Shown one piece after another: positions 16,690-51,400 of a DNA stretch of 64,000 nucleotides. Every line of letters begins with the position of its first letter. Position 1 is the first letter of the stretch. The DNA comes from Beroe forskalii (taxonomy: Eukaryota > Ctenophora > Nuda > Beroida > Beroidae). A program made the translations under genes and the position numbers. The notes below the pieces were generated by a model. It was not told the DNA's origin. It searched no databases and was given only the letters and a program-made list of their open reading frames with translations. The DNA is taken from NCBI GenBank assembly GCA_011033025.1, contig WFMF01000521.1, positions 52,746 to 116,745 of the forward strand, given 5' to 3'.

Positions 16690-17146
16690 TGGTAGCTTAT
16701 ACACAGTAACGAGGTAACAAAATACAATCAATACTCTGTTCCTATGCTCAACTGTGTGGAATTATTTATTCTGTGTTTTGTAGATTAAAATACTAGGCCT
16801 TGTTTGAAACAGAAACCTGAAGACCATCTGCAACTCTACTCTGCACTCTTGACTCTATCTAAGGAGGTGTATTTATATGTGAAGTAAAATTTTGTTGTTT
16901 ACAAATTGGAGATCTTTCTCAAGTCATTACACTTTGGAGATCTTTCTCAAGTCATTACTCTAGTTAACATATGATAATCATGGTGTGTTAAAAATGGCGA
17001 ATTTTCAGAAAAATCCCCAAATTTCAACCTTTTTAAATAGACCTCCTAAGGTAACAAATTAGCGCTGGCATTGGTTCACGCTACCATGACTAGGCTATTT
17101 TTATCTAAAAATCACAGTACAGAAGTGCTGTAATCTGATCAATCCA
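16690..17146. mobile_element. Left-arm-specific insertion containing a family A MITE
   Basis: About 455 bp is absent at the matching right-arm site (near 51,840), where AATAAAATATGTCAGTAAT is continuous. ATG is repeated at both edges. A family A MITE fills 16,858-17,053. The outer sequence does not match a family I recognise. Confidence 0.6.
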
Positions 17147-17149
17147 TGT

Positions 17150-19520
17150 CAGTAATGTTAGTACTAATAAGTAGGAGAGAAGATCATTCGCTATTAATGA
17201 ACAAGACGTGAGGAATAAATGGTACGACTAATAATTTGAACAATAAGGCTTGAAAAATCACATAAAGGTGCTCACAAATGGTACTGCACAAAATTGACAC
17301 AAAGTGTTCACGACATGCATTGAAGTGTCCCATAACCAAGAATAGTACCTAAACGACCGGCAGCCCTGGACCTATGTGGCGAGTTCCTCGATATGCGAAC
17401 AATGAAATGTTTCATAGTATCAGAGCTCTTAAATCAAAGTTATTTCGGTTTGACATCGACCAATCAGCGCGCGAATTGATCAATGCCTTGAACGCCGATT
17501 GGTCGATATCATGGCGGGTAGTTATAAAGTTTGCCGATGATAACCAGGAGGGGCCATCGACAAAATCAGACTACCTTACGAGTCATATTTACAAGGAATG
17601 GGAATTGATGGGAAAATACCACATTTTCGTACTTCACAAAATCTCAACATGACGTCTTCATCATACAATATTCCGATCTAAATCTTTTCTGTATAATCAC
17701 ATACGTCACAATAGCAATGTCCTGTATCCCCAAATTTTGATCTCCACAATTTTATCCCATAACAAATTCATCTCGTCAGCCAAGAAAAACACGCTTAGAC
17801 AATGCGCAACCTTTATTCTCCTTCGCTTTCTTTTCGAAAAATGATCAGTAAAAAGTCAGAGGTGGCCCTTCGGGTGTCACGCCGAAGGGTCCGGGCACTT
17901 AATCAAGGGATCATGTAGCCCACTCATCACGCTAAAGTCATCCAAACTATGGTCCGAGGACCACAGGTAAGGATTACTCCTACTGATAATGGAGAGGGTG
18001 TAGACACCTGTTTCGTAAGAACGCAAAAAATATATCCTTGCGTTTGGAAAATGCAATTTATAATAACGATTAAAATTTGTAATTGCATTTTTTGAACTAA
18101 ATTTTGACTGATAAGTCTATGCAAAATGATAGAATTGACTTTGTCAAGGTGACGTCATTGTGAAAGTAACACTCGTACTCGAGTAGGGAAATCCGACATA
18201 TAGACAAAAACGCGACGAAATAGAAATTGCATGTAACGAATATTCTACAGAGGAAGACGTTCCGAGGGATATTCAAATACATAATTCCAGTGTCAGATAT
18301 TTTGGTCGGGGAAAAATAGGAGGATTTTAATATCCTAAAGCCCCAAATTTCGCACCCAAAATTACAAGTTTACGGTTTAACTTGCGTGCTGATTGGACAG
18401 TTGGTCTTATGGTTTTTCTTTTGGGGGCGCTGGAGATGCTGGCATCCTTGCCTGCAATTTTTTAATTTTTTTATAATTCTCAGTTTTGTCAGAAAAGCAA
18501 AAAACTGGAGACTTTTTCAATTTTTGATGCAGTAAGAAAACTCCAGCATCTTAGGTTGGGTCTGCACCATCTTCAAAAGAAAAACCTTAGTTGGTCTTTG
18601 TCAGATGGACCAGTGGGTAAGCAAGAAAAGCCCTGAGAACATCAATAATTGTGGCTCGAGAACATTTATTTTAATCTGTGTATTTAGATAATCTATTTTG
18701 AGAAACACAGATATGAATAAGGAAATTAATGCATTCATTTACAATTCATACATTCAACATACAGGCAAACAAATTCTATGACTTGAAAAATTATTCAAGG
18801 CAAAAAAGTTATGAGATGCTCTGAGCTAAAAACTGGTCAGGGAGGACCAAGAACATTAATACCACCATTTCTAATGGTGGACAGCTTTATGACCTTTAAG
18901 TACCCGCTGCGGGTCAGTAGTACATAAACAAACATCGATTAAACATTACACATAATGGTTCCATTTGAATGGACATGTTCAAAAGCTTAAAATATTATAT
19001 ATATGCACTCACATCATTACATCGAATTATGTGGAATTTCCCTCAAATTTCATGCTAACGCACAATATAAAATGAACATATATAATAAATATTAGACAAT
19101 ATTTCATCATTAAATACTCAATGCTGGGCACAAGTGGGCTCTGTTTAGACAGGGATTAGACGATTAATGATGCACAGGCCAAATGCTATTCGACTAACTG
19201 GCAACAGCGGTGTTCCACTATTTTTACATGAGCAAATGCTGTGTTAATTCGAAAATTGCCAAAATTTTAATATTCATGACAATACTTGGTATAAATATTG
19301 ACTTTTTGTGGCAAAAAATCAAAGTTCAGTCGGAGTATTATGAATTGACGGATGAAAATAAGCCTTTTGCGCCTGGCGGAGCCACAGTGGTGGAAAAAGG
19401 CAGCGCCCCTCAAAAACGTATAGTCTTTGATGTGAATCAAGGGCTGCAAAGCAGTCCGCCAATTTCAAAAGTTCAAATACTTATAAGCCGAGGGATGGGC
19501 ATTATACCTAGCTGGCGCTC
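17150..19520. other. Non-coding arm sequence
   Basis: This DNA is conserved in the right arm (48,870-51,380) apart from insertions there. I find no supported gene. At 18,400-18,660 two GATGCTGG or CCAGCATC blocks form an imperfect hairpin flanking a run of A/T. The open frame at 19,210-19,575 runs into a MITE and is not credible as a gene. Confidence 0.45.
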
Positions 19521-19524
19521 CCAT

Positions 19525-19730
19525 GTATACCTTAGGTGTATTTATGGAGGCTGTAATTTGGGGATTTTTCAGTAAAATCCCCTTTTTTCACACATCATGA
19601 CAGTTCAAAATGACGTCATTATCATATGTTAACTAGAGTAATGACGAGAGAAAAATCCCCAAATTGTACCCTACCAAATTTTTAAACACCAAAATTTTAC
19701 CCCACATAAATACACTTCCAACGTAATATG
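19525..19730. mobile_element. MITE family A, shared by both arms
   Basis: A full-length copy bounded by ACCTTAGGTGTATTTATGG and ATAAATACACTTCCAACG, with the core AATGACGTCATTATCATATG. The mirror copy is at 48,673-48,868 at the same relative position, so this insertion predates the divergence of the two arms. Confidence 0.8.
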
Positions 19731-20290
19731 TAATGGCCAACAGGGGATGAATAAGAATTATACGAAGCCGATGGCAGATATAGTATACGCATGATACTTG
19801 TAACTTGTTCCCTGCTCCAGAAAGCTAGGCAGAGCAACGTCATCAACTTACCACTTTGACTTATGATGATGACGTCATCATAACCACTTATATCCATATC
19901 GTGTGGGATTTAGTAGAATATATTTATTACACTGCCAAGCCCAAGTACCGGTACTATTTTTACCCGCTGTATTGTTCAGAGCACCCAAACAAAGACCTGT
20001 CACGTGACTTTATCGCACCAATGGGAATCCAGGAAATCAGTCAGGTGATCAACACTATCCAATGGGGAGGAAGGGGCCGTGGGTGCCTGAAATTCAACAC
20101 TACCGAGTGAGGTAACAGCTGGTCCACGGGTGGTAGCGAGGTCGAGGGCTGACCAATGAGAGGGCGAGCTGAAGTCATGTGATCAGATCGTGCAGCCAAT
20201 CAGCGCTCAGCATGAGATCACGTGAATAACGAACCACTCAACTCGCAGATTGAAGCGGGGTTTTCTACGGAGCTAAAAATAGCTCTGTTT

Positions 20291-22577
20291 GGGGGGGGGG
20301 GATCATGTTTTATTTGTATTTTTTTGTATTTTTTTGTCCAACAATTTTTTGTCCAATTTTGAAAAATAGGGTACACTTTGGACATAAAAATACAAAAAAA
20401 TACAAAAAAATACAAAAAAACATAATTCTTATATAATGTTTTATAAGAGTCATCCTTTTCATTGCCAAGATCCTCGTCAAAATAATACACTAATAATAAA
20501 ATCATAATCAGCATCAAAACAATTAATCAGGCCCGTTATATATCGTGTAAATATTTTGTTTTTTTATAGTCCAAAAAACACGATTTTGGTTAATTAAGTC
20601 TCTCCTACAAGAGGATTTAAAAATTTGGGAATCATTCTATTTAAGCTACAGTATCTTTCTACATCCAAAATCAAAATATTGGAAAAAACATTGAAGGTAT
20701 GAAACGACCGAAATTAATATTTTGGCCACTTGAAGATCAAGCCGAAGCTATTACTTTATTAGGTCCTGACATCGGCTTCGGTCATGAAAAGGCAAATTCG
20801 GCTTTGATGATGAATTTGATCATGAAAGTTGGACAAATTTTTCAGCAACTTAACTTCGGCAGTTGATAGGCCGAAGTCTGATTGCAAAACATATTGTCCG
20901 AAATCTGAATGATAGTTCAAAATCATGATTAAATTCATATTCTTGAAATAATAACTAAAAAACTTCAGAAACGGTAGAAAATTGCCAAATTTCAATTTTC
21001 AGGATTTATAATTCATTAATTTTTTTGAATTCTAACAATTTTTAACTTGACAGTTGGTTGAAATTTTGGCGACTGCAAACCAATTTAAGTCAACAAGGAC
21101 AGCGCTATGAAATAAACTGGGATTGATTTTAAGAAATTTTGGCCGCAGGCAAAGTTCTGAAAATGGCCGAAAGTTCAAGTCGTATTTCCATGGACATAAG
21201 ATGTTTGCAAGAAAAAAGATCTGCAAATGCAATATCCCACTCCATGAACTATCAATTGGAGTTCAACAACGATAATAAATCACTGATTATCAGTGATTTA
21301 TACCCAATTTATGCCAATTATCAATTATAAAGAGTGAGTGTGAACTGTGGATTCAATAAAATTAGAATTGTTTTTTAATTGATTTTATTATTGTTGTTGA
21401 GCTCCAATAACAGGTACTACAATTTGAGGGTGGCCTTGAGTCCATTATAGACCATGCAACATTTCCCCGTGCAAGTGAATTGACATGTGTAATCTAACCA
21501 TTTTAGCCCATAAAAAAGAGGCCATATCTCTGTTTGTGGCTTTGCCCAATTGATCTTGTGTCATTTTCATATGAAATTATCTGGATTGCAAGAAAACTTA
21601 ACTTCACACAAGTTAGTGATTTTGATGTAGGTAAGCTTGATAAAACTTTTTGGGCACAAAATACCAAAAAACCTTGAAGTAGTAGGATTAAGGATAGGTA
21701 TTAGTGTAGCATTCTATCACTGGGGCAGGTAAATTAAGGGAGCACATATTGTTTCTATTTTGGATACACGGGCTAAAAACTAAATATTGAGATGCTTATA
21801 TAGGCAGACCGCAGAGCCTCCTACACACGGGATTGCCCGCAATTATGACCCTAGCGTAGTATGATGGAGCTCACACCTGGGGACAACCCAATATTTGAAG
21901 GATGATCCTGTGTACGAAGAGTCCCAAATTTGCGTTTTGGAAATTGGGGCTCCTCATTCCTGACTTCCCCATTCCATACAATGATACAAGTAGAGAAGTA
22001 GGTAAAATGCAGTTACATTGTGCACTGTAGCTTTAGCTGTTACATCAATGCAAACCGATTCCTTCACCCCATAATTGGTACAACCACACAATTGGACAAA
22101 ATAGACAAAATGCGGTAAGAAAGTGTCCATCTGCACTAGAAAATGCACTGATCACGATTTTTCGATTAAATTGAACTTGTGACTTCATAACGTTACTCTG
22201 AAATTCTATAATCATGAAACATTCCTTGAACAGTCCCCAGGGGCTCAATAATCTTATCAAGAGCTGTTCAGCTTCGGCGAACCTCATCGGGAAGGCGGAC
22301 CTAAGGCATAATATGCCCTAATTGTTATGTGGTTTGGTTTGTTAATAACCAAAACAATGTAATTGTAATAAGAGACGATTCATTGTTAATTTAATCCACT
22401 CAATACATAGATGGAAATGTCTGAATGACAATATAAATTTTTTCAATATTTTTTGTATTTTTTTGTATATTTTTGTATATATTTGTATTTTTTTGTCCAA
22501 CGAATTTTTTGTCCAACTTCAGAAAACAGGGTACACATTGGACAATTATACAAAAAAATCATGATCCCCCCCCCCCC
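20291..22577. mobile_element. 2.3 kb G-run-terminated element with 5 bp target duplication
   Basis: The left end is ten or more G then GATCATG with TTTTTTGTATTTTTTTGTCC. The right end is the inverted counterpart, ending AATCATGATC and a run of C. TGTTT is duplicated at 20,286-20,290 and 22,578-22,582. The right arm reads straight through with one TGTTT near 48,116. Subterminal repeats of TTGTATTTTTTTGTCCAAC occur at both ends in opposite orientation. No protein domain is recognisable in the interior. Superfamily unknown. Confidence 0.75.
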
Positions 22578-22582
22578 TGTTT

Positions 22583-24950
22583 TCCGTTCTCAATTAATCA
22601 ATTAAGAAGGGAAGGGGTCTAAAAATACCATCATAATATAGAAGCACAAACAAATCAAATCCGCGGAATCACCTTAGTGAATTGTTACCCAAAAAGCAGT
22701 TATAAATTCTGTCGAAAGGGCTGTTTTCTCAAGAATTACTGGCTCCGAGCCCAAACTTTTTTGAATTGAGCGGGGGTCGAAATAGCACTGGTCATATCTT
22801 GCTAAACAATAACAAACATCTCAAATCATATGATTTCAAATTGCCTGAAATCCTCTAAAACTAAGCTAACTGTTACAACTAATGCGAGTTATAATGAGAT
22901 TTAAGTGCTACGTACCATAACATTAGGCACTGAAACTTGGCTAATGTCCTAGGGAGCTCTAGCGGGTAATCAGGATTTGAAACAAATAACAAACACATTA
23001 AAGCTAGAGAGCTTAACGTCACGCTTAATATTACCAAAGAGGATTCAAAGATTTGAGCCAGTTAATCCAGCATAAAGCCTCATAATGGAGTATATTTAGG
23101 TATATACTGTAACTCTATAATAAAGTAATAACTCTATAAATAAGTAATAAAAGTAGGTAGAACCCGGCATTTTAATTCTTTGAAATTTGCAAGACGAAAG
23201 TGGAAACAGCTCAAATAGTAGGTAAATACTAATAGGTCATTACGTGTTAGTAGAGCTATCGGAACAATCCAAAAGTCAAAACTTCCTGTTTCCTCATATC
23301 TCTCTTACGTTGAACTTAAATTGGAAGAATGCCAATTTTAAGCATTCTTCCGATAATTGATAAATAGAACGGCCTCGAACGTCCAACTAACCTATCAGTT
23401 GGTTTAATAGGCACTGGTTAGAAGAAAATGAATAAGGGATGGAATTTTGATAAGTTTTTTGGAACTTAGGAATGTACAGGTACCTAAAACACAACCATGA
23501 CAGAAGGATGAAACTTAAATATTATGATTACTGACGACAATAGTCAATAAGATTTACTGATTTACGACAATTTAAGTATAACTACTGAAATTATAAAAAC
23601 TGATTGAAAAAGAGCGGGAACGTGAGTCGAGTAAGGGTAAGTCAAGCAACTAAACTCCCCAACAGGGAAGTAAATTAGTAAAGACGTTAGTTTTATCATA
23701 GGATAACACGGAATTACATGAAAAGCAATCCTTATTATTTACTGAACTTAGTGGAGAAAGTAGATTCGGTTGACTGTTCTGCATCTAAACATAGCAACTA
23801 ACCAAGCTTAATGTCATCAATAATCGACAATCCAGACTTGATCCATGATTGGACATAAAGCATTCTCATGCAAACAATCAATCTCACTTCTTAAAATAAC
23901 AGCTAGGTCATCGTTGTTAACAAAACCGCGAAACGGACGAAATCCTGGCAACGAATAATCTTGATGACAAAACAAAACACGCGGTTTCGGAAATTCCAGA
24001 ACATAACTAAAGCCGCGGATTTTTGCGCGCGTTTAACAAGAATGTTGTCACTGTCATTTTTTATCCGCAAAGATTCGTGAGAGGAGCAAAGAGAAATGCG
24101 CGGCGTTCAACTGAATTTTTGGAACGCACGATGCATTTTGAGATCAATATGGCAAATTTTCAGCTCATATCACGGCGGGCGCGGTGACATTTTTCTACAA
24201 ATGGCGCGCAAACAAAATGCTTAAATTTTATACTTTTTGACGCGCACCCGTCGAACACGAGGTAATTAATATAGCAGTCCCTGAATCCCTCTCCAAATCA
24301 AGCACGAGTGTTAATTTTAAGCAGAACTGGCATTGGTGATTGGTTGTGTCATGACCGGCTCTGAATATTGAAGACTGAAGGAACGATTTCTGACGCTCTC
24401 TAACCAGCTGTGAATTCCTATTCATACAGAAAATTGAAACGATCATATCAAACAAACAAATCAAAATGGAAGTAAATCAATGATTAACATAGTCACTTGC
24501 TGAGATAATTCATTCATAATTTAACAACACAATGATAAAGGTATTTGATAACAAATCACATGTATAAAACAATAAAATACAATTCCACATCAGCATAATT
24601 TGCAGACAAAAATTAGAGCAATCTGATTCAGGTGCACAACACTTATATATTCACAAATGCAGCAGTCAATTTACTATCAGTTAATCCCCAGCTCCTGGCT
24701 GAAAGAGGCAATTATTTCACAAAATGAAGATTCTGCTGTTCACTTGGACCTATTCCTCCAAAAAAGTGTAAAATTTAAAATAGAGAGAAAAATAACCTTT
24801 GATAGCTAGATTGTGAATCATGGTTGCAAAAACGCAACACACTGTTTTGATTTCAGCACTGACATTTGATGAGAAGTCCTCTAAAAATTCACAGCTTCTG
24901 TGTCTAGTAAGACCCATTATTCTAAGGGGGTCAAACAACACCTGACAATC
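22583..24950. other. Non-coding sequence downstream of VPS11
   Basis: This lies past the 3' end of VPS11 and is mirrored in the right arm, where it is interrupted by hAT-like and Harbinger-like insertions. I see no gene. Similarity of the arms remains high although it is non-coding. Confidence 0.45.
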
Positions 24951-24953
24951 TGT

Positions 24954-25447
24954 CTATGATAAAAACTGAGTGGGACTGGTAGGTACACTACCACCTGACT
25001 CCTCCCCAAAGGGGTTAGTGTCCTCCCCAAAGGGGTTATTATCCCCAGCAAAGGGGTTGCTCTTCTCTTCAGAGAAGGGGTTTTTAGTTTCAGGTTCAGC
25101 GAAGGGGTTTTTATCATCTGCGAACGGATTGTCATTTCCACTTCCACTTGGACCAGCAAGGGAAGAACTAGTAGTCACCACGACATCAGAAAGTCTGGAA
25201 ATACTGCCAGAATCCATCTCCTCAAAGGGGTTAACTCCTATTTCAGCGGCAGTTGGGGGTGAGTTGTCAAATACCACCGCTTCTCGGGGATTAGCAGTGA
25301 CAGCTTGGGTGCGAGGGCGCGCGTCAGCTGCACGTGTGTCTGGGATGGCGCGCGCAGATGTTTCCTGGCGTGAGGGGCGGGATCGGCGATTGTCCTGGAG
25401 TTTTGCTTTCCGTTCTCCGTCGATAACAAGAGGTTTGTTGTACACGC
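24954..25447 (-). CDS. VPS11: VPS11 terminal exon with NPF-repeat tail
   Basis: The last exon (164 codons plus stop) starts VYNKPLVIDGERKAKLQDN, aligns only at its start with known VPS11 C-termini, and then runs into a disordered tail. Seven NPF motifs appear: NPFEEM, NPFADD, NPFAEP, NPFSEE, NPFAGD, NPFGED, NPFGEE; the last six lie within about 55 residues. Acidic residues follow almost every motif. NPF tripeptides are the classic ligand of EH domains (EPS15, intersectin, EHD proteins). The tail is conserved in the right-arm copy with only small changes. A link to endocytic EH proteins is inference. Confidence 0.8.
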
Positions 25448-28400
25448 CTGGGAGAAGGTAACTAGGAGATAAGGAGAAGAATGCAATGCGGGGAAGGAAA
25501 GAAGTTAATGGTTTAATGGTGGGATGGAATCTTAAATAGATAAATGATCTGCCTTTTATGGGAATCGGGAAAGGAAAAGGCGTATGAGCAAGTGGCAAAA
25601 TGACAGAAATAAACGAAATCACTAGGAAAGTTCTTAATAACTTACCTTTAGCAAAGAAGTCAGCTACAGCAGTAAACGGATCAGGAGCGTTCTCGACGCA
25701 TCTAAAGAACTGCTGATCCAAGTTCTCCATCTGGTCTAGGGACTTGAGGTGTTCGAGGGTTTGTCTGTTGTCCGCAGAGCAGGCAGGACAGTCTTCTTCA
25801 AGGTCTGCTAACTCTTCAAAACACTGGGGGATTCGATGTCAGTGAAATATTAGGGGAATGTATAAATGATGAATAATAAGGTAGATGATAAATAATAAGG
25901 TAGGTACGCCAAAGAAAAAAAAAGAAAAAATCACAGTCATTTATCGTGAAGTCTGACTCACTGCTCCGAATTAAAAAAACAAAAACGGCAAAGTTTACTG
26001 CCCCAAAGTAAAGTGCAGACAAAGCAGCAAAAACTTTGCTTTTAGAAACAAAAAACTCTGCTTTTAGAAACCTGTTGATGCCAGGAGTGTCTGCACAGCA
26101 GATGAACAACAGGAAGGTTCAGTTTCTTAGCGCACTTCGTACACTTGTTTGTTTGGAAGATAACCGGCTCGCTCTTCAACTTCTTTATCTCTTCCCGCAT
26201 TTTCTGAGGACAATTCCTTGTAATTATCAGAAAAGATTTCAGTAAAAGGGAATTTGAAAATTTTAACTGTTTACTCCAGTCACCAACAATCATAGCTGTA
26301 AAAAGCAAACTGCAATATCTGTGACTAAACAGATACTTTCAGTATCACTCAATCGAGTGGGAATTACTGTGGCATCATACTACTTCTCACTCATCGATTG
26401 GAAATAACAACCCTTCCCCTCATCGAGTGGGATTATCCACTCTTCCCACTCAACGAGAGGGAATAACGGAATATCCAGTCATCCCACTCACGTTCGCCTC
26501 TTCAGAGTACTTCTTAACGAGAGCATCGTTCTCTGCCGTCTGTTCCTCCTCAATACCGATATGTCGGGTGATGTAGCTCAGCAACACGGAGATGGGCGTG
26601 GTCGCGTTCTCTGATAGCGCTTTTACCACCTGGGAAATGGGGATTTTAACTCATCAACGTTTTGACATAAGCATTAGATAAGTTAAAACTTGGAGGGGTA
26701 GATAGCGCTTTAACCACCTGGAAATGGGGATGTCTTGCATGAAGTCTTTTTGGAAATCATGCCATTATCAAGGTTTAAAAAGTGGGGTAATGGGGCAATT
26801 ACACCATCTTTTGGCGCACAATTTAATTAATGGTCACCACATCACTTGAAACTGTCAACTGAGATGCCTTCGCACACACTTCAATTTCAAGTTACTTAGT
26901 CTTAGTAGAGTAGCCAGGGTCATCTATAATATTATCTGACACTTAATACAAAAAAAAGCAGTGTTTTAATCCACCCATTATCAGAGGGAGAAGACCCTGC
27001 TCACACTTACCATGAGGGGAGGAAGGAGGTTTTTCTGCTCAATATACTGAAGTATCTCCGCCACATGCTCCCTACTTTCCTCATCCTCTCTAACAGCAAA
27101 GTACCGGAGAGCTTGAACCCAGAGGGAAGCTTCCTCCTGACCACGTCTCCAACACAGCTCCATTATACTCCTGTAACAGAGCAGTGGTTACCATGGTAAT
27201 AGTGCAATGGTTACCATGGTAACAATGGTTACCATGGTAACAGTAGAGAGCTTGTACCCAGAGTGATGCTTCCTCCTGACCTCTTCTCCAACACAGCTCC
27301 ATTATACTCCTGAAGAAAGTACTATGGTTACCATGGTAATAGTGCAATGGTTACCATGGTAACAAGGGTTACCATGGTAACAGTACAGTGCTTGTACCCA
27401 CAGGGAAGGTTCCTCCTGACCTCGTCTCCAACACAGCTCCATTGTACTCCTGAGGAAAGTACCATGGTTACCATGGCAATAGTGCAATGGTTACCATGGT
27501 AACAAGGGTTACCATGGTAACAGTAGAGTGCTTGTACCCAGGGATGCTTCCTCCTGACCTCTTCTCCAACACAGCTCCATTATACTCCTGAGGAAAGTAC
27601 CATGGTTACCATGGTAATAGTGCAATGGTTACCATGGTAACAAGGGTTACCATGGTAACAGTAGAGTGCTTGTACCCAGAGGGAAGCTTCCTCCTGACCT
27701 CGTCTCCAACATAGCTCCATTATACTCCTGAGGAAAGTACCATGGTTACCATGGTAATAGTGCAATGGTTACCATGGTAACAAGGGTTACCATGGTAACA
27801 GTAGAGTGCTTGTACCCAGAGGGATGCTTCCTCCTGACCTCGTCTCCAACACAGCTCCATTATACTCCTGAGGAAAGTACCATGGTTACCATGGCAATAG
27901 TGCAATGGTTACCATGGTAACAAGGGTTACCATGGTAACAGTAGAGTGCTTTTACCCACAGGGATGCTTCCTCCTGACCTCGCCTCCAACACAGCTCCAT
28001 TATACTCCTGAGAAAAGGGCATTATAATGACAGTGACCTGAAGTACAAAAAAGTACATTTTTCATACTATCTGCGCACGCATTTCCCTCACTGAGCCTTT
28101 TTTCAAATCCAAACACACGTGTTAAGTCCCCTGGTTCAGTACCAGAGTACCTGGCTCAGCAGAAACGTACCTGGTATCATTGTTCTCGATGTAGCAATCC
28201 AGTACATGCTGGTAGAGTCCCCTGTTCTCACACAGAATCACAATACCAGGCTGAAGTCGGTACAGCTGCATCAGAAGTAGGGCGTGGTCTGGATCATACC
28301 TGGAGGGAGTTAAGTCATTGAAAAAACTTTGACAAGAAGTTTTCATTGTGCATTCAAGTGACAATAAATCTGATAATGACAGATCACTATTTTCCCAAAA

Positions 28401-31400
28401 AGGCCATAGGGACCGACGGACCGTTCCGCCCATCTCCGTTCTCAAGAGGTTGAAGTTTATACGAAATAACTGTTACGAGAGAATTGTATGTAGAAGCTTT
28501 CGAAAATCATGTGATTATCGTCGTCAGCCGTTCATTTAGGACTGACCTCGCTTGCTCGTTTTGTAGCATGTCCACCACTTGCTTGGTCCTCATCTCTCTT
28601 CTTTCTTCGTTCTGTGAATCCCTCAGATACAACTCCAATAATGCGTTGTAAACTGCAGGAGAGGTAGGTTACAACTTTGTAAAAAGTTGGTTAGGAAACT
28701 AGCACTTTTCATCCCCCTATATATAGGATCAAAAACGGAGGTTGCATTGAAAAGTTGAAATTTCGACGTCATCAGTTGATTGATAAGGACACAAAATCAG
28801 ATAAACAATCAAACCATAACCTTGAGAGGAAAAAAGGAAGTTTCTGAGTTCATACATGTACCTTGAGAGGAAGCATCAGGTTGCTTCAGCACTATCGCCT
28901 CCAGGAACTCAATCAAACAATCGTTCCGGTTTACAAACAGCGGTATCAACTCCTCTGGATCCGGCGGGTATTCCATCATCGTGTCCACGTCTGGAGAAAT
29001 ATCTAGATAAACTTGTCGTGGAATCTTTAGCTAAATAATAAATTTGTCGATACTTTCGAGTTGGTTTTCAAGTTTCCAACGGAAAATAGCAACTTTATTT
29101 ATTTATCGATTCAGCATTTTTAACCATGATACATTGACGAGAGACGTTAAGCTTAAATTAAGTCCGCCTACCGTTTGGTGGTAGTGGTGCCAGTATGTCT
29201 GGCTCCATGTCAGGATCTGGGGAGGAAGATTCGTTGGTGCACAGTTCTATCAGAAACCTGAGGGGATATGATCAGCTTGAAAAGATCTGGGGAACTTTAC
29301 CAATATGTCTTGAACATATCAGCGAATAAAAACTCGGGTGAGCATAAAATTATGGGATGTATCATTCTGACATCAAGGGGGGCGTCTATAGGGGCTGCTC
29401 CCCTCAATTTCACCTGGTCATTCTCTCAGGGAGATGGACCTTGAGATGCTTCCCAAACAGCTTGCTATTTTTGGGGGAACCCCCATAATACCCGGGGATT
29501 GCCTCCCTAACCCCGGGATTTACCGGGGCTGCTCCCCCACCCATTTTACCTGGTCATGCTCTCAGGCAGATGGTCCATGAGATGTTTCCCGAACAGCTTG
29601 ATATTCTCCTTCTTCTTCTGGAGTGAAGGCAGCTTGTTGATGTAATCCAGCGCAGCTTCGTAATCCTGCTTATCTTCTATCTGGATGTACGTACCTGGGA
29701 CACACAGACTTGTCTGGACAATGACCAATCAAAACGCGAGTTGATCGAAAACTCGCACACTGATTGCTCCCTTAAATTTATTGCTCCCCCTCAGTTGGTT
29801 GGCCAATGTCGATTGGGCCAGTGGAATTGCTAATACGTAACAACGCGTATTCATGTACTGCATGTTTCTATGTTTTGCACGAATTTTCTCATCAAACACA
29901 GACGTCGAAGAAGTAAAACTCAGTACGTACCAGTCGTACTGATTGAACTTCTTAGCCAGATACGCCGCATCATCATAATACGTAGCCTGTCTACACACTT
30001 TAATCGCTGTCTCCACATCGAAGTTCAGCTCTCCATCACTTCGTATAAACTGCTCCAACTTGTGTACGTTCTTTAGTTTGGTGTAACAGTTGAGGAGCAG
30101 GGTGGTGTGGTCTTGGTTAGCTACCCCTCTCTCGTGCAACGCTTCTAGATACTGAAAAATAAGGTTTAGTAATAGAAAACGACAAAAAAAAACTGTAAAA
30201 AGGGAATAAGAAGACATCAAATTGAAACAGTCACATACAATTAAAGAATGAGATACGGAAAATTGAACGTTAAAAGTCAGATATCCAAAAACAGACAAGA
30301 TCAGTGGAAAAGTTTAAAATTATGGTGAGATTACAGCCTCCTAAACATAAAAAGGGGTAGAAAGTGGATCATGTATAGATTGAGAGTAATTGATAAACAA
30401 CCTGTGTCAGGTTATGGATCCTCCGAGCATCTAGGAACTTCCTTATAACGTAGGAGGGTTCAATGTGTCCAATAGTTCCAATGTACTTTGAGATGGCGCC
30501 ATCGTGATCACCTGAAAACATAATGATGTCAATCTCAGTCAAGAGGGACAAATTTTCGATTAAAAAAAGCTCCATAATGATGCCAATCTCGACAGGGCAT
30601 ATGTATCTTTTTGAAAAGTGTCGACTCTTCAAAGCGGTACCTTTTAAAGACGGTACCTTATAAACAACGGTACCTTATAAACAACGGTACCTTATAAACA
30701 ACGGTACCCTTACAACGGTACCTTACAAACAACGGTACCCTTACAACGGTACCTTATAAACAACGGTACCCTTACAACGGTACCTTATAAACAACGGTAC
30801 CCTTACAACGGTACCTTATAAACAACGGTACCACGTTAACAACGGTACCTTAACATTGACAACGGTACCTTATAAACAACGGTACCTTATAAACAACGGT
30901 ACCTTATAAACAACGGTACCCGTTAACAACGGTACCTTATAAACAGCGGTACCACGTTAACAACGGTACCTTATAAACAGCGGTACCACGTTAACAACGG
31001 TACCTTATAAACAGCGGTACCACGTTAACAACGGTACCTTATAAACAGCGGTACCACGTTAACAACGGTACCTTATAAACAACGGTACCTTTATTGACAA
31101 CGGTACCTTATAAACAACAGTACCACTTATTGACAACGGTACCACGTTAACAACGGTACCTTATAAACAACGGTACCACCTTAACTAACCTTATAACCAA
31201 CGTTAACGTTTACAACGGTACCTTATAAACAACGGTACCCTTACAACGGTACCTTATAAACAACGGTACCCTTACAACGGTACCTTATAAACAACGGTAC
31301 CTTATTGACAACGGTACCTTATGAACAACGGTACCTTATTGACAACGGTACCTTATAAACAACGGTACCCTTACAACGGTACCTTATTGACAACGGTATC

Positions 31401-34400: not shown

Positions 34401-36799
34401 GTAAGAGTGGTGATCAGTGAGCAGGGATAGTCCCAGACCACATCCTTCACTGGAGAGGAATGTGCTGACAGGACTGTTGTCTGACACCTGCAAGATAGGG
34501 ACACTAATTACAGGGACACTAATAGGGACACTAAATAGGGACACTTAATAGGGACACTAAATAGGCACACTAAATAGGGACACTAATTACAGGGACACTA
34601 ATTACAGGGACACTTAATAGGGACACTAATTACAGGGACACTTAATAGGGTCACTAATTACAGGGACACTTAATAGGGTCACTAATTACAGGGACACTTA
34701 ATAGGGTCACTAATTACAGGGACACTAATAGGGACACTAAATAGGCACACTTTGAAATATTACTAAATCGTTCTGGGAGTCCTTTCCGAAATAGGCTTGA
34801 GTAAAAAAAGTCAATATTTGAAGATTTTAGTGTAAATTTACTATTAACTTTTTACATAAGAAATTCTTGACAGTGCTCAACTATTTTCCGAGGAAGCAAG
34901 AAGCAAGTTCCCAAACACAGTTGCCTGGGAGTTTACTGTGCCTATAGAGGGGATGTGATGTCGGGGGGGGGGGGTCAAATGTCGCTCTTAGACACCTTGT
35001 TCAAGCCGCGGATCAGTGCGTTTGATTTATGTTTATTTATCGGGGGATGTAATGTCGGGGGGGGGGGGTCAAATGTCGCAGCAATCGTCGAACTGCGACG
35101 TTTGACCCCCCGCTTTCCTCTACAGATTTACAGTACTGTAGTTGGGGGTGTAGTGTCGGGGGATGTAGTGTCGGGGGATGTAATGTCGGGGGGTCAAGTG
35201 TCCCTTTACCGACACAAATTACAGGGACACTAATAGGCTCACTAAACAGGCACACTTTGAAATATTACTAAATCGTTCTGGGAGTCCTTTCCGAAACAGG
35301 CTTGAGTCAAAAAAGTCAATATTTTAAGATTTTAGTGTAAATTTACTATTAACTTTTTACATAAGAAATTCTTGACAGTGCTCGACTATTTTCCGAGGAA
35401 GCAAGAAGCTAGTTATTCTAGAATGCAAAGTAAAACGATCGGGATCCAACTTTAAGTTAAGGTTTTTAGAAATTTTTGGAACCTTCCCATGTCAATGGGT
35501 TCTTATGCCATTTTAAATGGATACTTTTTTCAAACACAAGGAAATCATTCCCTTTCACAGCATTATAATGATCAATAATTTTCTTGTGCATTACATTACA
35601 AAATATACTTTCATTTTTCTCTTACAATCTTTTCATAGTCAGCAAAGCTCAATCTATTTGTACTTTTGCGGACTACATCATCTTTTGATTACCAAAATAA
35701 GTTCCTATTCAGAGGAATATCATGGGGAATATGCTGACTGGGGAGTTTTCTGACACCTGCAAGATAAGGACACTGAATAGGGACACTAAATAAGGACACT
35801 AATTACAGGGACACTTAATAAGGACACTAATTACAGGGACACTAATTACAGGGACACTAATTACAGGGACACTTAACAGGGAGTAGGGACACTAAATAGG
35901 GACACTTAATAGGGACACTTAATAGGGACACGTTGAGATTACTATTACAGCGCCCTTACCCCCCAATACCCTCTTATTAAGTTATTGCCCCCCCCCCCCC
36001 TATTACCCTCTTGTAAGAGTGGACAGCAGAATCAGTAGACTACAACAGAACCCCCCTACCCCCCTTATTGCAGCCCCCTTACCCTCTTAATACCCTCTTT
36101 TTCCCCACCCTTTATTACCCTCTTGTAAGAGTGAACTGCAGACTCAGTAGCAACAACCCCCTATCCCCCTTATTACAGCCCCCTACCCCCTAATACCCTC
36201 TTATCACCCCTCCCCTCAATTCCATCTTATAACCCCAAACCTCACCCCTTATTACCCTCTTGTAAGAGTGGACTGCAGACTCAGTAGCCACAAACAGGGC
36301 TCCCTCCTTGTTAAACGATAGTCCAGTAATCGCAGCCTTATCGGAATGTATCACTTTGTGGCGTTGTTCCCGGGTGATGTCGTGACGGTAGAACAGCCAG
36401 ACTGTACCGTCTGCAAGCCCTGACAATATATTAATGTGTGAAAAAATGTGAAAATGTAGAAATGAAAACACAAATTGGCCTGTCAAATTGTGACTTCTTT
36501 GTCACGAATTGCACAAGGCCACAAGTTGTCTCTAATTTTGACAAATTCATTGAACAACCATACTGTGCCGACCGCTTGGCCCGATTCCTGAGGATGTATT
36601 ATCATTGTGCAGAGAAAAATGGAAACACTCATTGAAAAGATGAACGAATGAATAACAGCTAACCAAGTGCCATGTTGGACATGTTGTCGCTGACCACAAT
36701 ACAGGTGACGTGAACACTGGTCGTGGTTTTGTTGAGAGTCGTGAGATCCACGTATCTCAGACAGGTACTGTCTCCCGGCTTTGGGGTTATGTTCCAAAC
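24954..36799 (-). CDS. VPS11: VPS11, HOPS/CORVET core subunit; 18 exons, 5' end not found
   Basis: Exons in transcript order: 36,799-36,664; 36,419-36,256; 34,487-34,322; 34,032-33,907; 33,709-33,608; 33,475-33,347; 30,511-30,402; 30,151-29,931; 29,694-29,550; 29,257-29,172; 28,990-28,862; 28,652-28,547; 28,299-28,171; 27,170-27,011; 26,629-26,492; 26,203-26,072; 25,823-25,646; 25,447-24,954. All have GT-AG edges and matching phase, except the 29,931/29,694 junction, which is one base out of frame. About 950 codons are covered. Diagnostic stretches are HIEPSYVIRKFLDARRIHNL, DHTTLLLNCYTKLK and FDVETAIKVCRQA. The protein tethers endosomes, lysosomes and vacuoles before fusion and acts with VPS16, VPS18 and VPS33. 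Order of domains: beta-propeller, alpha-solenoid, RING-H2, then an unusual NPF tail. The first roughly 115 residues of the family are missing: upstream of 36,800 lies a minisatellite and then the inverted copy. Confidence 0.9.
25646..26203 (-). CDS. VPS11: VPS11 RING-H2 domain, split over two exons
   Basis: The exon 26,203-26,072 encodes KCTKCAKKLNLPVVHLLCRH and ends SWHQQ. The exon 25,823-25,646 starts CFEELADLEEDCPAC. Together they give the Cys/His order C-x2-C ... H-x2-C-x-H-x2-H ... C ... C-x2-C of the VPS11 C-terminal RING-H2, with the final CPxC eight residues after CFE as expected. The intron falls exactly before the cysteine codon. The second exon continues into FRCVENAPDPFTAVADFFAK, the conserved post-RING helix. 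Confidence 0.88.
27011..30511 (-). CDS. VPS11: VPS11 alpha-solenoid exons (clathrin-heavy-chain-like repeats)
   Basis: Eight exons encode the helical solenoid used for HOPS/CORVET assembly. Recognisable parts are YIGTIGHIEPSYVIRKFLDA, DHTTLLLNCYTKLK, YDDAAYLAKKFNQYDW, IPLFVNRNDCLIEFLEAI, HALLLMQLYRLQPGIVILCE and SLWVQALRYFAVREDEESRE. The spacing and order match VPS11. Short partial duplicates of several of these exons lie in the adjacent introns and are described separately. Confidence 0.9.
27171..28007. repeat. Tandem array of partial VPS11 exons, acceptors and X-box palindromes
   Basis: Six extra copies of a 138-140 bp unit precede the true exon 27,170-27,011 in the minus-strand direction. 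Exon-like starts lie at 27,309, 27,449, 27,587, 27,727, 27,867 and 28,007. Each unit holds an acceptor (TTTCCTCAG), about 65 bp of the exon 5' part (IMELCWRRGQEEASLWVQAL) and three palindromes of the type GTTACCATGGTAAC, but no donor. The palindrome matches the RFX X-box consensus GTNRCC-(0-3)-RGYAAC. The right arm has only one extra unit (starting 38,131). Confidence 0.9.
29408..29468. repeat. Intronic partial copy of a VPS11 exon 3' edge
   Basis: This is an imperfect direct duplicate of 29,543-29,605, the 3' edge of the exon 29,694-29,550 and its donor. It contains CACCTGGTCATTCTCTCAG followed by GATGCTTCCCAAACAGCTTG. It lies about 80 bp further into the intron. Confidence 0.75.
30650..31610. 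repeat. GGTACC satellite, AACGGTACCTTATAAAC unit
   Basis: About 55-60 tandem copies of a 13-18 bp unit, each with the palindrome GGTACC. The linker varies: CTTATAAACAAC, CCTTACAAC, ACGTTAACAAC, TTATTGACAAC. It lies in the long VPS11 intron between 30,511 and 33,347. Confidence 0.9.
31690..31960. repeat. About 75 bp tandem repeat with TATGACGTTGACACCACT
   Basis: Three to four imperfect direct copies, each with TGACACCACTCGGGACCC, AAGCATGACGAAT and TACGTACACATACC. They lie between the GGTACC satellite and the small membrane-protein frame in the same VPS11 intron. Confidence 0.75.
32382..32388 (+). promoter_or_regulatory. Possible TATA box
   Basis: TATAAAA lies about 120 bp upstream of the ATG at 32,501, which suits a start site near 32,410. 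It supports a separate transcription unit inside the VPS11 intron, but such a motif in AT-rich DNA is weak evidence by itself. Confidence 0.3.
32501..32845 (+). CDS. Single-pass membrane protein frame of 114 residues, intronic and antisense to VPS11
   Basis: ATG at 32,501 opens a frame starting MEDKTMIVISSFILIMALCL. It has one strong hydrophobic segment (about residues 7-28), then a basic amphipathic stretch containing EMEVFFKKKLKNALKRSP and an acidic/Ser-Thr tail ending SDTVLDME. I do not recognise it. About 200 bp downstream, a purine tract (AGTGGGGGGAG, near 33,037-33,047) is followed by TGTGGATACAC, like a polypurine tract with a 3' LTR start. So the frame may belong to a retroelement remnant rather than a host gene. 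No matching 5' LTR was found. Confidence 0.35.
   Translation: MEDKTMIVISSFILIMALCLLGLFVHLITSAKKDAAMSVWKLNQSVAKITQLQLTNDRTFSEMEVFFKKKLKNALKRSPMEKKVDFAAQTDLEGGMVEGSSQTTPRSDTVLDME
33347..36799 (-). CDS. VPS11: VPS11 beta-propeller exons (1-6 of those found)
   Basis: The first exon found starts VWNITPKPGDS and ends SDNMSNMALG. The second gives LADGTVWLFYRHDITREQR, the third ends near DPGNNLPMDG. The fourth contains IAWYRGCLVS and ends IYDMSNKFIG. The fifth holds LLVEWGSLFVIGKNNELYK, and the sixth gives the transition to the solenoid with LAKNNQDDHMNLIKAHGDHL. These align in order with the N-terminal WD40-like propeller of VPS11. The first exon has an acceptor, so at least one more exon must lie upstream. 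Confidence 0.85.
34490..35940. repeat. AGGGACACTAAT repeat arrays and a 165 bp direct duplication in a VPS11 intron
   Basis: Arrays of AGGGACACTAATTAC and AGGGACACTTAAT occur at 34,490-34,745 and 35,755-35,935. A block of about 165 bp beginning near AGGCACACTTTGAAATATT is repeated directly at 34,742-34,910 and 35,247-35,410. A GGGGGATGTAATGTC repeat lies between them. Near 35,735-35,765 there is a partial copy of the exon 34,487 5' edge with its acceptor (TTTTCTGACACCTGCAAGAT). Confidence 0.8.
36008..36290. repeat. Intronic copies of the VPS11 second-exon edge
   Basis: The segment CCCTCTTGTAAGAGTG with a following GCAGACTCAGTAG occurs three times, at about 36,008, 36,118 and 36,255. Only the last is the true exon end (reading ESAVHSYKR on the minus strand). 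Each copy carries the GGTAATA donor side. A decayed copy of the other end of the same exon lies near 36,540-36,600, where the minus strand reads VGTVWLF, like the genuine DGTVWLF. Confidence 0.75.
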
Positions 36800-36869
36800 C
36801 TGAAATTGAAAATTTAATGCGATAATTGCATTTTAGGCTAAAAGGGATGTCAGCGTGGGGTCGCGTCAA

Positions 36870-37475
36870 GGACGAAGTGGTGTCAGGGAAGAAGTGGTGT
36901 CAGTGTGAAGAAGGGTCAGTGAAGAAGTGGTGTCAGGAAAAAAGTGGTGTCAGTGAAGAAGGGGTGCCAGCGAAGAAGTGGTGTCGGGGAAGAAGTGGTG
37001 TCAGGGAAGAACTGAAGAAGTGGTGTCGGGGAAGAAGTGGTGTCAGGGGGGAAGTGGTGTCAGGGAAGAAGTGATGTCAGGGAAGAAGTGGTGTCAGGGA
37101 AGAAGTGGTGTCAGTGCAAGAGTGCTGTCAGAAAAGAAGTGGTGTCACGGAATAAGTGGTGTCAGGGAAGAACTGAAGAAGTGGTGTCAGGGGAGAAGTG
37201 GTGTCAGGGAAGAATGGTGTCAGGGGAGAAGTGATGCAGGAAGAAGTGGTGTCAGGAAAGAAGTTGTGTCACGGAAGGTGGTGTCAGGGAATAAGTGGTG
37301 TCGGGGAAGAAGTGGTGTCAGGAAGAACTGAAGAAGTGGTCAGGGAAGAAGTGGTGTCAGGGGAAGTGGTGTCAGGGAAGAAGTGGTGTGGGAGAAGTGT
37401 TGTCAGGGAAGAAGTGGTGTCAGGGGAAAGTGTGTGGGAAGAAGTGGTGTCAGGGGAAGAAGTGGTTACAGGGAG
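36870..37475. repeat. GAAGAAGTGGTGTCAGG minisatellite
   Basis: Around 35 tandem copies of a 17 bp unit with variants. It sits directly upstream of the first VPS11 exon found, in the spacer of the inverted duplication. Its open frames (Lys-Lys-Trp-Cys-rich) are repeat artefacts. This is where the missing 5' part of VPS11 would be expected. Confidence 0.9.
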
Positions 37476-37871: not shown

Positions 37872-40297
37872 GTATGGCCACGCCCTTCTTCTAATGCAGC
37901 TGTACAGACTCCAGCCTGGTATTGTGATTCTGTGTGAGAACAGGGGACTCTACCAGCATGTACTGGATTGCTACATCGAGAACAATGATACCAGGTAGGT
38001 CTATTGATCCAGTTACTGAACCATGAATTCAAAAAAGGCTGAGTGAGACAAATGTGTGCGCGTATAGTATGCTATTGATGGACTTTTTTTAATTTTATTT
38101 CGGGCCATCAATTTAAAAACTCATTTCAAGGAGTATAATGGAGTTGTGTTGGAGGAGGGGTCAGGAGGAAGCATCCCTCTGGGTACAAGCACTCTACTGT
38201 TACCATGGTAACCCTTGTTACCATGGTAACCATTGCACTATTACCATGGTAACCATGGTACTTTCCTCAGGAGTATAATGGAGCTGTGTTGGAGAAGAGG
38301 TCAGGAGGAAGCATCACTCTGGGTACAAGCTCTCCGGTACTTTGCTGTTAGAGAGGATGAGGAAAGTAGGGAACATGTGGCGGAGATACTCCAGTATATT
38401 GAGCAGAAAAACCTCCTCCCTCCACTCATGGTAAGTGTTAATTTAACGTTTTTAACGGAAAGTGAGGAACAGAGTCTTTTCCTTCCGAAGACGACTGGTT
38501 TTCGCATGTCTAAGTTAGATAATATAGTCTAAGTTAGATAATCTTGGATTTATTACCTAGAAACTGAGGAAAGAGTCTAAGGAAGTATCTCGGTTGAATT
38601 TTTCATGTGATTATTATGCGCGAATAAGTCGATAGTTTCGTCCGATCAGCCCATTTTTTCAACATAAATAATCATGGGATTATGGCGTCATTCCCAAAAA
38701 GACTTCGAATGCAAGCCATCCCTATTTCCCAGGTGGTTAAAGCGCTATCAGAGAACGCGACCACGCCCATATCCGTGCTGCTGAGTTACATCACCCGACA
38801 CATCGGTATTGAGGAGGAACAGACGGCTGAGAACGATGCTCTTGTTAAGAAGTACTCTGAGGAAGCAAACGTGAGTGGGACGAGAGGAGATTCCCACTCG
38901 CTGAGTGGGAAGAGTGAATGTTACAGATGTTCCCATTCGATTTAGTCGGAATTACTGAAATGTCACAGATATTTCCTCTAGCTGAGTGGGATTTTTGAAA
39001 TCATAGATATTCTCATTCGATTGATTGGGGATATTTGTTGGTGACTGCTGTCAACAAATAAACTTTTCAATTTCATTTTTTCTGGGATCGCTCCTGATAA
39101 TCACAAAGCATTTTCCTCAGAAAATGCGGGAAGAGATTAAGAAGTTGAAGAGTGAACCTGTCATCTTCCAAACCAACAAGTGTACGAAGTGCGCTAAGAA
39201 ACTGAACCTTCCTGTTGTTCATCTGCTGTGCAGACACTCCTGGCATCAGCAGTGTTTTGAAAGCAGAGTTTTTGCTGCTTTGTCTGCATTTTACTGTGGG
39301 GCAGTGAGTCAGACTTCACGATAAATGACTGTGATTTTTTCTTTTTTCTTTTCTATTTATTATCTACCTTATTATTTATCATTTATACATCCCCCTAATA
39401 TTTTACTGGCCTCTTCCAGTGTTTCGAAGAGTTAGCTGACCTAGAGGAAGACTGTCCTGCCTGCTCTGCTGACAACAGACAAACCCTCGAACACCTCAAG
39501 TCTCTAGACCAAATGGAGAACTTGGATCAGCAGTTCTTTAGATGCGTCGAAAACGCTCCAGACCCGTTTACTGCTGTAGCTGACTTCTTTGCTAAAGGTA
39601 AGTTATTTAGAACTGTTCCAGTGTTTTCGTTTATTTCTGTCATTTTGCCACTTGCTCAATTACGCCTTTTCCTTTCCCGATTCCCATAAAAGGCAGATCA
39701 TTTAACTATTTAAGATTCCATCCCACCATTAAACCATTAACTTCTTTCCTTCCCCGCATTGCATTCTTCTCTTTATCTCCTAGTTACCTTCTCCCAGGCG
39801 TGTACAACAAACCTCTTGTTATCGACGGAGAACGGAAAGCAAAACTCCAGGACAATCGCCGATCCCGCCCCTCACGCCAGGAAACAACACTCTCTGCGCG
39901 CGCCATCCCAGACACACGTGCAGCTGACGCGCGACCTCGCACCCAAGCTGTCACTGCTAATCCCCGAGAAGCGGTGGTGTTTGACAACTCACCCCCAACT
40001 GCCGCTGAAATAGGAGTTAACCCCTTTGAGGAGATGGATTCTGGCAGTATTTCCAGACTTTCTGATGTCGTGGTGACTACTAGTTCTTCCCTTGCTGGTC
40101 CAAGTGGAAGTGGAAATGACAATCCGTTCGCAGATGATAAAAACCCCTTCGCTGAACCTGAAACTAAAAACCCCTTCTCTGAAGAGAATAAGAACCCCTT
40201 TGCTGGGGATACTAACCCCTTTGGGGAGGATAATAACCCCTTTGGGGAGGAGTCAGGTGGTAGTGTACCCACCAGTCCCACTCAGTTTTTATCGTAG
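37872..40297 (+). pseudogene. VPS11: Partial inverted copy of VPS11: last six exons
   Basis: Exons at 37,872-37,994, 38,271-38,430, 38,733-38,870, 39,121-39,252, 39,420-39,597 and 39,798-40,297 match the last six left-arm exons. The frame is kept, including the NPF tail and stop. The first exon lacks 6 bp (two codons), and the last has two extra codons after ETT. The exon ending at 39,252 is followed by TG instead of GT, so the donor inside the RING domain is lost. A donor-like GTGAGT at 39,307 would keep frame but add about 18 residues inside the RING. No upstream exons exist on this strand. It is either a truncated duplicate or the second haplotype of the same locus. Confidence 0.8.
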
Positions 40298-50612: not shown

Positions 50613-51400
50613 TGTATTTGAATATCCCTCGGAACGTCTTCCTCTGTAAATTATTCGTTACATGCAATTTCTATTTCGTCGCTTTTTTGTCTATATGTCG
50701 GATTTCCCTACTCGAGTGTTACTTTCACAATGACGTCACCTTGACAAAGTCAATTCTATCATTTTGCATAGACTTATCAGTCAAAATTTAGTTCAAAAAA
50801 TGCAATTACCAATTTTAATCGTTATTATAAATTGCATTTTCCAAACGCAAGGATATATTTTTTGCGTTCTTACGAAACAGGTGTCTACACCCTCCCCGTT
50901 ATCAGTAGGAGTAATCCTTACCTGTGGTCCTCGGACCATAGTTTGGATGACTTTAGCGTGATGAGCGGGCTACATGATCCCTTGATTAAGTGCCCGGACC
51001 CCTTGGCGTGACACCCGAGGGGCCACCTCTGACTTTTTACTGATCATTTTTCGGAAAGAAAGCGAAGGAGAATAAAGGTTGCGCATTGTCTAAGCGTGTT
51101 TTTCTTGGCTGACGAGATAAGTTTATTATTAAGAAATGGAGATCGATCCCCGAAACCTGTAAATATTTCTTGTAAGGAAGTCTGATTTCGTCAATGGCCC
51201 CTCCTGGTTATTATCGGCAAAGCCAAACCAGCAACCCGTCATAACATCGACCAATCGGCGTTCAAGGCATTGATCAACTCGCGCGCTGATAGGTCGATGT
51301 CAAGCCAAAATAACTTTGATTTAAGAGCTCTGATACTATGAAACATTTCATTTTTCGCATATCGAGGAACTCGCCACATAGGTCCAGGGCTGCCTGACGT

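Follow-up and report, generated by a model that had tools for sequence, protein, structure and literature searches.

Tandem copies of a VPS11 exon head with X-box-like palindromes form a probable mirage-type minisatellite

Tandem duplications of exon-intron edges, termed mirages, have been described in lancelets in the genes for Adh3, the globins BflGb6 and BflGb9, TnC, and PGBD5 (PMC3087553, PMC3902484). According to the available parts of these two reports, either exon heads or exon tails are multiplied in units of up to 150-160 bp and the splice signals are copied with them, the number of units in BflGb6 is haplotype-dependent (6 and 3), and RT-PCR suggests that genes carrying mirages are regularly spliced (PMC3087553, PMC3902484). 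Intron gain by tandem splice-site duplication, the Rogers model, is also named in the available text of PMC3087553.

The array described here multiplies the head of one exon of a VPS11-like gene, which is located on the minus strand of the window (the whole stretch of 64,000 nucleotides that was analyzed, corresponding to C605:52746-116745 of a 216-Mb assembly). As in mirages, the repeat unit spans an exon-intron boundary, partial copies (hereafter decoys) carry splice signals, and an intact exon is kept at the end of the array. Unlike in mirages, the intron half of the unit consists of an X-box-like palindrome that is dispersed in the genome, arrays are found at several edges of one gene, and the host is probably not a lancelet, as it was in the reported cases; the anatomy rather than the host was taken as defining. 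With the Rogers model, as far as it is set out in the available text, the VPS11 array shares the multiplication of splice signals by tandem duplication, but no new exon or intron is seen at the array and the decoys are without a normal partner site. The initial annotation of this DNA knew of no comparable exon/X-box satellite, a statement that does not hold given the lancelet mirages, which in the available text have this anatomy (PMC3087553, PMC3902484), and the palindrome/exon arrays found elsewhere in the same genome. What is new is the X-box-like spacer, the recurrence in several genes and a probable ctenophore rather than lancelet host, whereas exon-edge arrays themselves are known. Literature searches did not find the GTTACCATGGTAAC string, nor GGTTACCATGG together with palindromic repeats; among the matches listed for RFX, X-box, and satellite there was no X-box array by title, and no related ctenophore minisatellite was found by title.

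A lancelet host was rejected on the mitochondrial code and an iGluR match. On a 13,339-bp mitochondrial contig COX1 reads TGA as tryptophan and has AGA at three sites, which we take to be conserved arginines; AGA at these presumed arginine sites points to code 4 and away from code 5, the invertebrate code; code 4 is common to other early animal groups. The iGluR fragment has its best PDB match in ML032222a (113 bits), presumably a protein of the ctenophore Mnemiopsis, followed by GluK2 (96 bits). A ctenophore host is likely, and in that case minisatellites at exon edges would not be peculiar to lancelets.

The exon at issue matches Pfam TPR_PEP5_VPS11 (7.5e-10), and a 490-residue join of the VPS11-like exons matches PDB 7zu0, PEP5 (5.6e-22), in agreement with the VPS11 identity and exon derivation first assigned from the sequence. 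The tandem array was placed by TRF at 27107-28017 with a period of 140 and 6.5 copies. It is composed of six full units (A1-A6) of 140, 140, 140, 138, 140, and 139 bp followed by the intact exon. The exon head takes up about 64 bp of each unit, which also contains three GTTACCATGGTAAC-type palindromes and provides a new acceptor, and a YAG acceptor (TCTCAG, CCTCAG, TTCAG, or TTACAG) stands ahead of each of the seven heads. Only the last head belongs to a complete exon with a normal donor. Every decoy contains a weak possible donor GT (TGG/GTACAAG, with GTAAAAG in decoy 1), which, from its position, could possibly define a mini-exon that is out of frame and 52 nt long (50 nt in the fourth decoy). 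The features of the array are as follows, the higher coordinate of each head being its start on the minus strand:

28171-28298, minus strand: upstream VPS11 exon, with donor GTACGT from 28170
27944-28007, minus strand: decoy head 1, the preceding intron end being without palindromes
27804-27867, minus strand: decoy head 2
27664-27727, minus strand: decoy head 3
27526-27587, minus strand: decoy head 4, with a 2-bp deletion and a broken frame
27386-27449, minus strand: decoy head 5, with two amino-acid changes
27246-27309, minus strand: decoy head 6, its first 60 bases equal to the arm-B exon head
27011-27170, minus strand: intact VPS11 exon (copy 7), with acceptor AG at 27172-27171 and donor GTAAGT from 27010
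27187-27241, 27327-27381, 27467-27521, 27605-27659, 27745-27799, and 27885-27939: X-box-like palindrome triplets

Across A1-A6, 22 of 140 columns are variable, and decay of the decoys is evident from the deletion in A4 and from amino-acid changes in A1 and A5. The array contains 18 palindromes (12 exact, four with one mismatch, and two with two), and the 64-kb window 21 with up to two mismatches, against 0.26 expected; none of 100 shuffles reached 21. The initial annotation had described this anatomy largely correctly: its seven units of 138-140 bp with the 5' part of the exon correspond to seven heads, strictly to six units plus the intact exon, and the restriction of a matching donor to the last copy, the approximately 18 palindromes at three per unit, and the upstream exon edge at 28171 were all recovered. 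The two units that it gave for the other arm are two heads with one palindrome triplet.

The two arms belong to a large inverted duplication (17146-28632 and 51843-37669), with arm blocks that are 2-25% diverged. The VPS11 exons for the propeller and the middle part (36.8-28.7 kb, minus strand) lie between them, and C-terminal exons are present in both arms; if the middle segment were inverted, the gene front would be connected to the second C-terminal exon set. The first VPS11 exons were not found within the window. A second copy of the propeller exons, approximately 90% identical to window positions 37477-35609, was observed at C170:1078900-1081400. C-terminal VPS11 exons were not found at this copy, which may reflect misassembly, or else a rearrangement, at a 17-bp minisatellite (36865-37474). 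The description of the window as the only complete VPS11 copy was dropped, since the first exons were not found there and C170 has a partial 5' copy. In the arm opposite the array (arm B), heads start at 38131 and 38271:

38131-38270, plus strand: arm-B unit with decoy head, AAG acceptor, and palindrome triplet (38199-38253)
38271-38430, plus strand: intact exon of arm B, its 53 residues identical to copy 7

Six exons in all were compared between the arms. Four C-terminal exons (27169-25644 versus 38272-39599) have 36 nucleotide and no amino-acid differences over 606 nt, the last compared exon (51 nt) has no difference, and the upstream exon (129 nt) has 14 nucleotide differences, with 4 of 43 residues changed. 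Since the 36 nucleotide differences leave the protein unaltered, the C-terminal exons of both arms seem to be under purifying selection, though arm B is without a gene front; against this argument from conservation stands the upstream exon, the one of the six that differs in protein.

We consider it probable that the array is a mirage-type minisatellite that was duplicated, amplified, and homogenized, and that is removed as an intron by exon definition. This reading is favored by a unit that spans both the intron end and the exon head, by decoys that decay while the intact exon codes for the same 53 residues in both arms, and by like anatomy at other loci. The end of the intron and the first approximately 64 bp of the VPS11 exon would have been duplicated, and a palindromic minisatellite that is dispersed and prone to hairpins presumably served as filler between the copies; we infer this founding step mainly from arm B. 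The two-head state, as still seen in arm B, would have been amplified to seven heads, and the units would have been homogenized by unequal exchange and conversion, partly between arms. In the pre-mRNA the six decoy heads would offer acceptors without a normal donor. Exon definition would pair the last acceptor with the sole proper donor and the array would leave as an intron, as the anatomy and the lancelet cases suggest.

Possible traces of such turnover are visible in the units. Head A6 is identical to the arm-B exon head at 60 of 60 bases while the intact arm-A exon differs at 5 of 60, which points to exchange, and the arm-B spacer is identical to the spacers of A2 and A3. Variation in unit number between homologous copies, a criterion for mirages, was found here on paralogous or haplotype copies: seven heads stand against two between the arms, and at a different VPS11 edge, near 36.2 kb, the window has three copies of an exon tail versus one intact copy in the C170 segment, which is approximately 90% identical to window positions 37477-36245. 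The C170 intron (L063 1218-1330) contains TCTGCAGTTCAGAGGGCTGTAATAA, which looks like the deleted remnant of a second exon-tail copy.

Most likely, the array is a minisatellite that is tolerated, its decoy heads being skipped for want of a normal donor. A decoy-free copy of the array exon was not found in the assembly by unit and protein searches; given this and the absence of amino-acid differences over 606 nt, it is likely, provided that the animal needs VPS11, that one decoy or more is correctly passed over in splicing. According to the reading frames, a decoy spliced to the upstream exon would run into a stop, located either in the palindromes or at the following head, and decoy 6 would meet one in the intact exon, out of frame. 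Exon definition would be the simplest account of the bypass, and seven near-identical acceptors with one proper donor constitute a natural experiment on it. Against a bypass, some use of decoy acceptors is possible, as pyrimidines are no more frequent at the real acceptor (11 in 19 positions) than at the decoy acceptors (12-14).

The distribution of the unit in the genome differs between its halves. When one 140-bp unit was used as query, the exon half (query 79-140) was found on this contig only (40 of 42 candidates scored), and in a protein search matches to the exon (query 172-229) were confined to the two arms of this contig and the decoys there. The array is therefore exon-derived. The initial annotation would have regarded it as an ordinary satellite had the same unit occurred at many unrelated loci, which the exon half does not; the palindrome half is dispersed and matches 35 other places, many of those fetched being short-period arrays.

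Eighteen stretches (L025-L042), covering the first GTTACCATGGTAAC places listed, in contig order, were scanned by script, and 11 of them were also partly inspected by eye (L027, L029, L032, L034, L035, L040, and L042 by script only); four contained exon-edge arrays. A further 14 stretches (L043-L056) chosen from the unit-search matches and nine 3-kb loci (L015-L021, L023, L024) were likewise examined, all by script and some by eye, and exon-edge arrays were also found at L043, L049, and L052. Array-like anatomy is thereby present at six other palindrome loci, and at L052 without an exact palindrome, with HECT ligase and histone deacetylase confirmed by homology:

L025: exon tail twice and exon head three times, in open frames with fitting splice sites
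L036: exon head twice plus a fragment, histone deacetylase (9.6e-22)
L038: exon tail twice, in an open frame with fitting splice sites
L039: exon tail three times, in an open frame with fitting splice sites
L043: HECT ligase (1.5e-35), exon tail twice, head of the next exon four times, its tail 12 times, and head of a third exon three times, each of the four arrays having palindromes in its spacers
L049: exon tail twice around four palindromes
L052: exon tail six times, the spacers having CCATGG-type fragments only and no exact palindrome

The putative exons of L025, L038, L039, L049, and L052 had no match in Pfam, and those of L025 none in the PDB. Uniqueness of the VPS11 array was rejected on these seven loci. 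At least four exon-edge duplications are without palindromes, namely an exon tail and an exon head of the HECT gene (two copies each) and two further edges of VPS11 itself:

29391-29605, minus strand: second edge duplication of VPS11, exon tail with donor in two copies, no palindromes
36001-36288, minus strand: third edge duplication of VPS11, exon tail with donor in three copies, no palindromes

The palindrome is therefore not required, and from these cases in the HECT gene and VPS11 the duplication of exon edges appears to be a general tendency in the genome, with the palindrome as one frequent spacer.

At 91 palindrome clusters, donor-like strings pointing inward and outward numbered 12 and 3 within 30 bp (4.8 expected each), 20 and 8 within 60 bp (11.2 expected), and 27 and 24 within 120 bp (22.8 expected). 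The inward excess is confined to close range and is suggestive only, because the clusters are non-independent (16 of 91 from L043). Tentatively, and with more doubt than confidence, the X-box-like palindrome might be regarded as a mutational seed that duplicates adjacent exon edges, splice sites and candidate RFX sites multiplying together genome-wide. If so, mirages would have an ancient or convergent origin in animals and would provide natural material for testing spliceosome choice among near-identical sites. The association with the palindrome offers a testable idea of how exon-edge minisatellites start.

The RFX X-box consensus is given as GTNRCC N0-3 RGYAAC in the available text of PMC10530576, and each of the 12 exact array palindromes fits it, as the initial annotation had recognized; unlike the X-box of that text, these putative sites are intronic, arrayed, and part of a minisatellite family with non-X-box arrangements. 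Genome-wide, exact GTTACCATGGTAAC has 1036 sites (reversed control 22), the everted arrangement GTAACCATGGTTAC 58 (control 89), and the head-to-tail arrangement GTAACCATGGTAAC 1257 on both strands (control 125). For GTTGCCATGGCAAC, which we take to be a stronger RFX site, there are 74 sites (control 12), mostly single among the matches listed. Judged by the counts of these differing half-site arrangements, the common element is a GGTAAC/GTTACC minisatellite family rather than X-boxes alone. It is accordingly improbable, though the sites fit the consensus and the genome encodes RFX DNA-binding domains (four matches on two contigs), that the 18 X-boxes act as a platform or sink, recruiting RFX dimers and regulating VPS11 or titrating RFX. 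The 1036 X-box-arranged copies outnumber the everted ones, but the non-X-box head-to-tail arrangement is equally common and the presumed stronger site is scarce. Palindrome columns vary less across A1-A6 than the rest (1 of 42 versus 21 of 98; Fisher p 0.004), a hint rather than a test of selection, since the units have a common origin and may undergo conversion by each other, and conversion among many copies would explain it equally well. Of the proposed platform or sink the motif fit stands, while the role finds little in its favor beyond that match. One GTTGCCATGGCAAC site and an exon for an RFX DNA-binding domain (C380:23117 and C380:24552) are approximately 1.4 kb apart, and autoregulation would be possible.

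That the palindromes pair around the decoys in the RNA and hide them, leaving the last acceptor free, is quite improbable. In the predicted fold the two adjacent palindromes of every unit pair into a stem of 14 bp closed by a 4-nt loop, palindrome pairs enclose decoys 2-6 but not copies 1 and 7, and the minimum free energy is -460 versus a control mean of -387; the first head, however, is never enclosed, and the last acceptor is equally favored when the palindromes are scrambled. Its predicted AG advantage of 0.37 was exceeded by 13 of 24 palindrome-scrambled controls and its acceptor-region advantage of 0.08 was reached by 3 of 24, and the loop-out was rejected as not supported by folding.

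Local assembly errors are possible given the inverted-duplicate structure of the contig and the first exons not found in the window. That misassembly made the copy number or the inverted arms themselves is very improbable: the inverted arms, the failure to find the first exons in the window, and the incomplete repetition of the 5' part on C170 would fit it, but the units differ at 22 of 140 columns, the arm blocks have diverged, and like anatomy recurs at other loci. An ordinary dispersed satellite with no more than a likeness to an exon can be dismissed almost outright, for although its palindrome half is dispersed, the exon half encodes VPS11 and was found, within the sensitivity of the search, on this contig only.

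Two minor observations concern neighboring elements. Repeats of the GGTTACCATGGTAAC type were seen, reading by eye, seemingly within an open glycine-rich frame (L014 1470-1660, C517), and the palindrome may thus also be present in coding repeats. Each arm carries one U8 snoRNA gene above the Rfam gathering score (17855-17989, minus strand; 50899-51033, plus strand).
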